Origin: Oligoflexia bacterium
GTDB taxonomy: Bacteria; Bdellovibrionota; Bdellovibrionia; Bdellovibrionales; Bdellovibrionaceae
Direction of reading: 5' to 3'
DNA length: 64,000 nucleotides
NCBI GenBank assembly: GCA_016861345.1
Contig: BOLD01000006.1
Location: 62,001-126,000 of the forward strand
Numbering within the stretch: position 1 is the first letter of the stretch; each line of letters begins with the position of its first letter. Position numbers and translations under genes: made by a program. Positions 4,521 through 7,607 of this stretch are shown here, in pieces. The notes beneath the pieces were generated by a model. The model worked only from the letters and a program-made list of their open reading frames with translations, had not been told where the DNA came from and ran no database searches.

Positions 4521-5468
4521 ATGTCTAGAAACTTTTTTATAGCCCTGACCTTCCTCTTGTTCGGTCATTTCTCTGAAGCGGCACCTTTGCAAGCAATGAT
4601 CACATCCATGCAAGGTCAGGTCGAGGTCTTAACGCAGACGAATGACAGTGGAAATGATCAGTCGAAAGTCATTTTCGAGGGTAAAAAATATCTGTATGCC
4701 AAAGCGAAAATTGGGCAAATGGTTACAAGCGGACAAGTTATTCGCACCAGCACTGATGGAAAGGCTAAGGCCATTTACAAAAGTGGAGATGTGATTGTTC
4801 TGGGGCCATCAACTGCGGTGTCAATACCAGCTGAAGTTCAGAAAAATTCAAAGACTGAAACTGAAATGCAGATGATGTATGGCAAAGTAAGAGCGATTAT
4901 AGATAAAAACGGTCCTTTGACAAACATTAAGGTGTCGACTCCTTCGGCGGTGGCTGGGGTGAGGGGTACAGATCTTGTTGTGGGTTACAACCCCGCGATT
5001 CAGCAGACTGATGTGCATGTCTTGCGTGGAAAAGTAGAAGTGGTCAAAGTTGTTCCAGAGAAGGCGCTTCCCGCGAAATCCCTATCTGTTTTGACGGGTC
5101 AAAAGGCAGAGGTTTCAAAAACTATTGCCGATGTGAAAACATCAACAAAAGTCGATCTTGCAAATATTCAGCAAGAAACAACAGTCATCACCGAACAAAA
5201 AGAAAGTGTTACATTAGAAGTTACACAACAAGTTGCTGAGCTTGAAAAGGCTGCAGCCGAGAAGATTATCGAGGATATTAATCGCACGAATCCAAAAGTA
5301 GCTGCGGCGTTGAAGACGCAGGCCCTTGCCTCTACCGATCAAATTAATTCTGCGGTTGTGAAGGACTTGTACAAGGATGCACCAAAGGGAAAGCCCCAAT
5401 CCGGTGACTTTAATATGAAGGACGAAGATGTTTACAAAAAGTATTTCGATCCCATCTTGGGCAAATAA
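4521..5468 (+). CDS. FecR-domain exported protein
   Basis: 315 residues with a signal peptide ending near FSEAAP. Residues about 20-190 form a FecR-type beta domain: GQVEVL, the VTSGQVIRTSTDGKA segment, ISIPAE-like edge strand, YGKVRAII, TPSAVAGVRGTDLVV and VLRGKVEVV. TPSAxAGVRGT is the diagnostic core of FecR domains. The rest (about 190-300) is an Ala/Glu/Lys-rich helical tail, probably coiled coil. Classical FecR is an inner-membrane anti-sigma sensor; here there is no sigma factor or TonB receptor nearby and no transmembrane anchor after the signal peptide, so a periplasmic structural or sensing role is more likely. AGGAG precedes the ATG by 8 nt. Confidence 0.85.
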   Translation: MSRNFFIALTFLLFGHFSEAAPLQAMITSMQGQVEVLTQTNDSGNDQSKVIFEGKKYLYAKAKIGQMVTSGQVIRTSTDGKAKAIYKSGDVIVLGPSTAVSIPAEVQKNSKTETEMQMMYGKVRAIIDKNGPLTNIKVSTPSAVAGVRGTDLVVGYNPAIQQTDVHVLRGKVEVVKVVPEKALPAKSLSVLTGQKAEVSKTIADVKTSTKVDLANIQQETTVITEQKESVTLEVTQQVAELEKAAAEKIIEDINRTNPKVAAALKTQALASTDQINSAVVKDLYKDAPKGKPQSGDFNMKDEDVYKKYFDPILGK

Positions 5469-5537: not shown

Positions 5538-5624
5538 TTGTGTTTTACGGACCTCGGACTGGTTGAAGAAATAAAGGCGCTCTGTCCCAAGACATTTTCA
5601 AAAAAACAAAGTAAGATTAAAGAC

Positions 5625-7607
5625 ATGAGGTTCGCTTACATAATTGAGGATGACCCACGGTTTGTAAAAGAGATAGCCGAAGTCATTCGCGGTAATATTG
5701 ATAAGGAAATGCAGATTCGCGTTTTCGCGTCATTGGAGCAGTTTGCAAATTGGATCAAAATGGCAATGCTCGACGGTGCTGCAGCTGTTCCGCACGGTGG
5801 CCAGGCACCGCCGGGATTCGCAAGCCCTAATATTGAAAGTAATGAGGGGCACGAGATTGCATTATTTATTTCTAAAATTGAATTTATTGGTAAAAGTCAT
5901 ATTGGTTTGTTGCAAAAAACAAAGAAGCTTTTCTTAGATAAAAATATTTGTAAACCTGATCGGCCCACGGGATTTGTTTTGACGGCCTTCGAACAGGCAG
6001 AGGGGCGTTATCGCGATTTTGAAACAGAGATTATAAATAATATTATTTGCAAACCATTTGATAAATTGATTTTGCAACAGCATCTTCAAAACGCAATCGA
6101 CGGTCGAAAGCCTCTGTCTCAATTTTTTATTACAAATCAGAAAGTAGATGCCGATATTGAGATGCTCAAAGAGGTAAGGATTGAGGGTTATTCTGACATC
6201 GGCTTCATTTCAAAGGGCAATCGCGAAATTGCTCCGGGATCGCATGGGAAGTATTACGGTAATTTTTTTGCCACGGATAGGAAGAAATACTGTTACGGCA
6301 AAGTTTTAAGTTGCCAGCCAGATCCCCAGAAACAGGGCGAGTATTTTATTACAATAACCTTTATGGGGTTGGCACCGGATCAGCTGTCGAAAGTTCGGCA
6401 AGGAAGACTGAAGAAAGATGCCGCAAAACTTCCTTTTGATTGGACGAAATTAAGATCTAATCCGAGCCTAATGACTCGACCAGGACAGTTTGTTATCATT
6501 GAAGATGATGAGCCCAATGCTTTAATTGTTGAAGAAGCTCTGAAGAAAAGATTTAAGCAAAACACGGTTGTTCGATACCCAACTCTGATGGAGTTCTTGA
6601 TAGATTTGGATCCTAAACTTGCAGATGCTCCGCCTGAAAAGTCCGCAGGAAAACCATTTTCGTGTGGACCCGACATGGAATTCATTTTTGATCCTCTTGG
6701 TAATTTAGTGACCGGCTTTAATACAGAAATAAAGGATCCGTTTACAGCATTTGGGGTTAAAGATTCTGATTGGAAGATTAGGCAAAACTGGTTTGGCACG
6801 GCGCTTGGAGTTGCCCAAAAAGAAAAATGGAAAGAGTGGCTCCGGCAGCCGAGCATAGGCACCGAGTTTATGATTAAAAATGGAGAGGTGCCGTATTACT
6901 TCAAGCCAGTCAGCGTTGTAAAAGAGAGCAATCGAATTATTGTGAAAATGGCAGAGTTGTCACCAACTGAGATTCTTGACTATTTGCTCAAAAATAGTCG
7001 TTTGCCTCATGCCGTGGATGCCTTGTTCGTATCACAGAGGTATTTTCAAGGCGAAGAGTACGAGGCAAAGTGGATTGATATCATTGACCGCCTGAATAAA
7101 CGGGGACAGGAAAAAGTTCAGGGACATATGGCAAGAGCTTTTATTTTAACGAACAAAGACTTTCCTGATTTGGAAATGCGAAAGCTTGGCGCAATTGTGG
7201 CAGATATTTTTGTCAAGCCAGTGGATCGCGCATATTTAATGCAAAAGATGAGGTCTTACTTCCCTGAGTTAGCCATTGTTGGAGATCCTGTACAGTTTGA
7301 AACCGTTTCAGCTCCGCAAATTATTAAAGCGAGTAACCCTGTCAAAATGACCGAGATCTCAGAAGCGAGCACGATTATCAGATATCCGCGACTTATTCCC
7401 GTTGGTGAGTTTCGCGAGTTTATGCTTTTTGAAGGTCAACGGACGGATATTCCTGAACTTCTTGCGCAGTGTAATTTTGTCCAAGAGGCAGAGGACAAAG
7501 ATTACGAATGCCAATTTATCTTCTATGCCGTGACTGATCACTTTGCGAAGTCCGTACGTATTTGGATTCGTGACAATTACATCGATTCAAAGAAAAAAAG
7601 CAGCTAA
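5625..7607 (+). CDS. Two-module pseudo-receiver / PilZ-like regulatory protein
   Basis: 660 residues, cytoplasmic. Module 1: receiver-like domain with acidic pair IIEDD (8-10), Thr120 (FVLTA) and Lys143 (NIICKPFD), but the phospho-acceptor position after strand 3 reads ALFIS (Ser83); a Pro/Gly-rich loop is inserted at about 50-75. A PilZ-like beta domain follows (about 178-258). Module 2 repeats the plan: FVIIEDD (293-295), a PAS-like insertion (about 348-450), ALFVS (Ser470, again no Asp), FILTN (Thr509), DIFVKP (Lys531), then a second PilZ-like segment (about 565-640). Both PilZ-like parts lack the RxxxR c-di-GMP motif. Likely a phosphorylation-independent binding or scaffold protein. The ATG at 5625 starts exactly at strand 1; its ribosome site is weak. 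Confidence 0.75.
   Translation: MRFAYIIEDDPRFVKEIAEVIRGNIDKEMQIRVFASLEQFANWIKMAMLDGAAAVPHGGQAPPGFASPNIESNEGHEIALFISKIEFIGKSHIGLLQKTKKLFLDKNICKPDRPTGFVLTAFEQAEGRYRDFETEIINNIICKPFDKLILQQHLQNAIDGRKPLSQFFITNQKVDADIEMLKEVRIEGYSDIGFISKGNREIAPGSHGKYYGNFFATDRKKYCYGKVLSCQPDPQKQGEYFITITFMGLAPDQLSKVRQGRLKKDAAKLPFDWTKLRSNPSLMTRPGQFVIIEDDEPNALIVEEALKKRFKQNTVVRYPTLMEFLIDLDPKLADAPPEKSAGKPFSCGPDMEFIFDPLGNLVTGFNTEIKDPFTAFGVKDSDWKIRQNWFGTALGVAQKEKWKEWLRQPSIGTEFMIKNGEVPYYFKPVSVVKESNRIIVKMAELSPTEILDYLLKNSRLPHAVDALFVSQRYFQGEEYEAKWIDIIDRLNKRGQEKVQGHMARAFILTNKDFPDLEMRKLGAIVADIFVKPVDRAYLMQKMRSYFPELAIVGDPVQFETVSAPQIIKASNPVKMTEISEASTIIRYPRLIPVGEFREFMLFEGQRTDIPELLAQCNFVQEAEDKDYECQFIFYAVTDHFAKSVRIWIRDNYIDSKKKSS

Follow-up and report, generated by a model that had tools for sequence, protein, structure and literature searches.

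A predicted protein of two tandem pseudo-receiver/PilZ-like modules with a PAS-like insertion in an Oligoflexia bacterium

Gene and predicted domain layout

The gene described here lies in a window of 64,000 nt of the Oligoflexia bacterium assembly GCA_016861345.1 (contig BOLD01000006.1, positions 62,001 to 126,000, forward strand). Its domains are listed in Table 1, with positions counted from the first nucleotide of the window. A longer open reading frame with a TTG start at 5538 was rejected because the relatives begin at the methionine encoded at 5625. Neither Pfam nor NCBIfam placed any domain above threshold in the protein, no enzymatic domain was recognised with either collection and a PDB sequence search with the single protein returned no match. 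The best Pfam score was obtained for the receiver family (PF00072), with 12.7 bits compared with a gathering score of 30.2.

Table 1. The gene and its predicted domains (aa, residues of the encoded protein)
Feature	Window position	Strand	Residues	Basis and remarks
Gene, 660-aa tandem pseudo-receiver/PilZ protein	5625..7607	+		ATG at 5625; aligned N-terminus of relatives
Receiver-like domain 1	5625..6104	+	1-160	AF2 model, alignments
PilZ-like beta barrel 1 and C-terminal helix	6138..6410	+	172-262	Without RxxxR; S190-D-x-G193
Receiver-like domain 2, first half	6486..6614	+	288-330	AF2 model; E293/D294 as acidic pair
PAS in alpha2/beta3 loop of receiver 2	6621..7013	+	333-463, core about 350-445	AF2, Foldseek, profiles
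Receiver-like domain 2, second half	7020..7262	+	466-546	Ser470 at phospho-Asp position, Thr509, Lys531
PilZ-like beta barrel 2 and C-terminal helix	7305..7604	+	561-660	Family-invariant Glu580, Arg645

A full-length AlphaFold2 (AF2) model built with a 71-member family alignment reached a mean pLDDT of 93.1 and a pTM of 0.87, with the elements in the order receiver, barrel, receiver with insertion, barrel. In the model the receivers span residues 2-159 and 288-328 plus 466-545, the barrels 172-261 and 561-659, and the alpha/beta insertion 330-460. Both receivers adopt a (beta-alpha)5 fold as judged by AF2 secondary structure and Foldseek matches to receivers. When the full model was compared with the PDB, Foldseek matched PleD, single receivers, PilZ proteins and PAS domains, the PilZ-type matches of the barrels being MotI, MrkH, VCA0042, YcgR and a Xanthomonas PilZ protein. 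Modelled on its own, the insertion was predicted to form a PAS fold (pLDDT 90.9), and its best PDB matches were nearly all PAS domains (AHR, RpfR, phytochromes, PYP, Aer), none of which passes E 0.001. The assignment as PAS was made from the fold, the agreement of the Foldseek hits with one another and the family-level PAS_3 matches. An initial sequence-only reading had proposed two receiver-like domains, each followed by a PilZ-like barrel, with a PAS-like insertion splitting the second receiver, and had named structure prediction as a check. The models are in good agreement with this layout and show receiver topology in both receivers. The predicted receiver-PilZ-receiver[PAS]-PilZ architecture is thus well supported and not a product of chance, since the domain plan recurs in 71 sampled members, 45 of them with the PAS.

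Internal duplication and single-module relatives

With the PAS removed, module 1 and module 2 could be aligned over 233 columns using hhalign (probability 99.9, E 1e-34). In profile comparisons of the window-family modules, receiver matched receiver at E 4.9e-18 and barrel matched barrel at E 5.2e-24, and unrelated domain pairs used as a control gave no match. The two modules are therefore homologous and the protein arose by internal duplication, as had been supposed from the spacing of its parts.

Single-module REC-PilZ proteins of 212-293 residues match both module 1 (E 1.6e-32) and module 2 (E 1.9e-37). Like the window protein, those at L148, L149, L155, L154 and L158, which come from the same order, consist of a receiver followed by a PilZ-like barrel, with homology over the entire module, and single-module proteins and window family share an S-E-x-G and a C-terminal IR/LR-type signature. 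In contrast to the window protein, they have one module, an intact phospho-site and no PAS. Their receivers score far above the Pfam cut-off (E down to 3.5e-28 among single-module relatives), and L154 additionally passes the PilZ gathering score. The genome containing the window also encodes a 240-residue single-module relative (L146:4127-4846, G000:C4), in which Glu replaces the phospho-Asp and for which no Pfam match was obtained.

Distribution and history of the PAS insertion

The PAS that had been noticed in the window protein is not peculiar to it, as 45 of the 71 members carry one at the same site of receiver 2, and the family tree requires at least 6 changes. No PAS profile matches the window copy; PAS_3 was found in 5 of 44 isolated homologous insertions, with a best E of 8.4e-5. 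The PAS sequence is poorly conserved, with no nearly invariant column, and a single conserved ligand is therefore not indicated. The Bdellovibrio-type members sampled (528-549 residues) have no PAS, and by its length the same is true of the named B. bacteriovorus record among them. Because these members keep the protein, PAS input cannot be its sole function.

The receiver-2 insertion profile also finds a PAS at the equivalent place in receiver 1 of L182, L161, L064 and others (7.8e-6 in L182), and a comparison of the receiver-1 with the receiver-2 PAS set gave a match (probability 95.7, E 9.4e-9), but none to the other domains. In L182:2652-5183 and L161:1893-4352, both receivers contain a PAS, yielding symmetric (REC[PAS]-PilZ)2 proteins of more than 800 residues. 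We infer that a PAS was already part of the duplicated unit and that some of its copies disappeared afterwards; alternatively, the PAS may have been copied later from receiver 2 into receiver 1. In L010:1030-3333, the receiver-1 loop is enlarged by ~90 residues of Ala/Pro/Thr-rich low-complexity sequence at a point occupied by a PAS or a short loop in other members.

Family range and gene context

The family search covered 100 related genomes, 89 of which contain matches, and 71 distinct members were collected. For the collection scan, a profile of 17 closer members was used, the all-family alignment being too diverse. In a phylum-wide sample, strong matches to the family profile extended through the order of the window's genome, matches outside it being weak, and named records of the family belong mostly to Bdellovibrio and related bacteria. 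Receiver matches in Pfam were obtained for 15 of the 71 members, with E values up to 1, and weak PAS matches for 3. The earlier statement that no named family has this plan thus holds for Pfam and NCBIfam, but the protein is by no means isolated, given the matches in most related genomes and the single-module relatives with intact phospho-sites. Two family members, L097 and L101 (CALQIT020000002.1 and CALQIT020000012.1), come from one metagenome-assembled genome whose title, Streptomyces griseus, looks wrong. Another member, L050 (G091:C30), is reported with one in-frame TAA inside its open frame.

The gene stands alone, and its neighbourhood is not conserved beyond close relatives and varies between genera, with transporters, metabolic genes and FecR as recurring neighbours. 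A FecR-type protein is encoded upstream on the same strand in three loci only. In the window, the FecR-domain protein directly upstream (4521-5468, same strand) shows distant similarity to Leptospira LipL45/Lsa33 models. Co-occurrence with chemotaxis, pili or c-di-GMP enzymes had been suggested as a further check; in the neighbourhood comparison, no chemotaxis, pilus or cyclase genes were found as recurring neighbours. Type IV pili and GGDEF proteins were rejected as obligatory partners, with PilT and GGDEF present in 45 of 45 genomes, with or without the family.

Flagellin behaves differently from PilT and GGDEF in these 45 genomes, the 9 genomes without flagellin being exactly the 9 without a family match. 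Together with the best PilZ-type structural match, the motility inhibitor MotI/DgrA, this raises the question of a flagellar or motility adaptor like YcgR/MotI, with the barrels acting on motility proteins. Such a function is compatible with the adaptor role outlined below and would name its target. However, all 9 flagellin-less genomes are small and come from a single taxonomic family. The RpoB tree needs at least 3 changes, of which its well-supported branches force only one. The motility link is for these reasons a lead only. Further, in six flagellated genomes all matches are weak or single-module ones, and flagellin genes lie nearby in few loci, at an estimated frequency of about chance level for multi-copy flagellin genes. 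Overall, we regard a motility function as unlikely and the flagellar link as a weak lead. Elsewhere in the window's genome, a canonical PilZ-domain gene (L178, G000:C4:8980-10815) adjoins a flagellin gene.

PilZ-like barrels and c-di-GMP motifs

A motif scan found [DN]xSxxG nowhere in the window protein and no RxxxR ahead of either barrel, the two RxxxR strings present beginning at 489 and 645. The description of both PilZ-like domains as lacking RxxxR was therefore accurate. The PilZ profile (PF07238) does not match the window protein and matches 6 of the 71 members weakly, and the barrels' profile match to the genome's own canonical PilZ proteins is colinear and weak. The barrels carry a signature of their own, in which Glu580 and Arg645 are invariant across the 71 members; this indicates that the family is under constraint.

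Proteins of the YcgR/MrkH/PlzA-type xPilZ-PilZ group bind c-di-GMP through their C-terminal PilZ domain, by its RxxxR and (D/N)hSxxG motifs (PMC8323883). These proteins resemble the window protein in having two PilZ-type barrels per chain and are among its Foldseek matches. The window protein differs from them in that both motifs are missing and a receiver with a PAS lies between the barrels; it does not share the group's defining plan, in which a PilZN-type barrel is followed by a C-terminal PilZ domain that has the c-di-GMP motifs.

Judged by these missing motifs, c-di-GMP binding has probably been lost. It might be that the barrels or the pseudo-receivers still bind a cyclic dinucleotide (c-di-GMP or cGAMP), at a non-canonical site. 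The window's genome has 14 Pfam PilZ and several GGDEF matches and therefore possesses c-di-GMP signalling, and some pseudo-receivers of Caulobacter, those of ShkA and Cle, do bind c-di-GMP (PMC10333796). However, the RxxxR and [DN]xSxxG pair occurs in just 1 of 71 members, and the Cle-type motif [YF]xGPx[RK]R is absent from all sampled family members. We consider this explanation improbable, slightly more so than a role in motility.

Phospho-sites of the receivers

A pseudo-receiver has been defined as a receiver without at least one of five active-site residues (D, DD, T, K), with an Asp-less subset missing the D (PMC12632262). Alignments confirm that both receivers retain the acidic pair, Thr and Lys, as E8/D9, Thr120 and Lys143 in receiver 1 and as E293/D294, Thr509 and Lys531 in receiver 2. 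In both receivers only the phospho-Asp of the five is missing, and both are thus Asp-less pseudo-receivers by this definition.

The sequence-only reading had placed Ser at the Asp position of both receivers (Ser83 and Ser470) and had hinged on there being no Asp at the strand-3 position. The alignments show no Asp at 83, 84 or 470. In case of receiver 2, Ser470 indeed aligns with the phospho-Asp in the profile alignment. In case of receiver 1, profile alignments with single-module REC-PilZ proteins and with solved receivers both put Lys84 at this position, and the alignment of module 1 with module 2 alone sets Ser83 opposite Ser470. Strand 3 ends at residue 84 in receiver 1 and at 470 in receiver 2 of the AF2 model, which favours Lys84. 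The phospho-Asp position of receiver 1 is thus most likely occupied by Lys84 rather than Ser83, with a doubt of one residue.

Across the family, Asp is found at the receiver-1 site (column 84) in 17 of 71 members, at the receiver-2 site (column 470) in 28 and at both in 12, the Asp state of distant members being alignment-dependent. The family tree requires at least 7 changes at the receiver-1 site and at least 8 at the receiver-2 site, so that the Asp changed repeatedly. Loss of phosphorylation, as proposed earlier, therefore fits the window protein but is not simply family-wide, and phosphorylation may still matter in relatives that keep the Asp. That the window protein itself is a phosphorylated response regulator after all, via a residue that does not align with the phospho-Asp, would be in line with the four retained residues and the Asp of relatives. 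We think this very improbable, given that no Asp is present at the three candidate positions and that no complete five-residue site was found in either receiver of the sampled two-module members. It is equally hard to believe that the protein is a functionless, decaying remnant: the window copy departs from the family consensus at some conserved barrel positions (Ser582 and Ala635, each for Gly), but its reading frame is intact and full length, the predicted fold is confident and relatives occur in 89 of the 100 related genomes.

Comparison with known systems

Of all Foldseek matches to the full model, PleD (REC-REC-GGDEF) ranks first; like the window protein, it has tandem receivers in one chain. 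Its second receiver serves as an Asp-less adaptor. The output of PleD is a GGDEF cyclase, whereas the window protein has a PilZ-like barrel between its receivers and a PAS in one of them. In Leptospirales, c-di-GMP-binding YcgR homologues contain an inserted GAF-like domain (PMC11800159). A sensor-like domain is thus inserted into a PilZ-type protein in both cases, with the difference that it is a GAF-like domain in a YcgR homologue in Leptospirales and a PAS in a receiver here. A literature search on REC-PilZ output found nothing, and one on PAS insertions in receivers, judged by titles, returned no title describing one.

Proposed role and implications

Fold, homology, duplication and the missing Asp were computed; the mode of action is one that we infer. 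Among the readings considered we find most likely, at about an even chance, that the window protein acts as a phosphorylation-independent adaptor in cytoplasmic signalling, with a REC-PilZ response regulator as its ancestor and the PAS as its input. The two modules go back to a single unit of receiver and PilZ-like barrel, duplicated head to tail; a PAS would have entered the alpha2/beta3 loop of its receiver, and the receiver-1 copy of the PAS was probably lost later in the window lineage. With the phospho-Asp gone from both receivers, the PAS is the most likely source of input, through binding of a ligand or by dimerisation. Acting from the loop end, on the side opposite to the former active site, the PAS would shift receiver 2 and so alter the binding of a partner protein by the tandem receiver/PilZ surfaces. 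The PilZ-like barrels, without c-di-GMP motifs, would provide the output by protein binding. The wider proposal, in which a receiver is switched by the PAS in its alpha2/beta3 loop rather than by Asp phosphorylation and the ancestral family form is the symmetric (REC[PAS]-PilZ)2, is tentative, and we are inclined to doubt it.

By what means a pseudo-receiver switches when it is not phosphorylated has been named as an open question (PMC12632262). The family offers a natural series, from single-module proteins with intact phospho-sites through tandem proteins that keep Asp in one receiver or in both to Asp-less proteins, and none, one or two inserted PAS domains are found among its members. With this series, it can be tested directly how phosphorylation was lost and whether another input took its place. 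The source genome is that of a relative of the predatory Bdellovibrio, and the results add an order-wide signalling family, so far nameless in Pfam and NCBIfam, to predatory and related bacteria.
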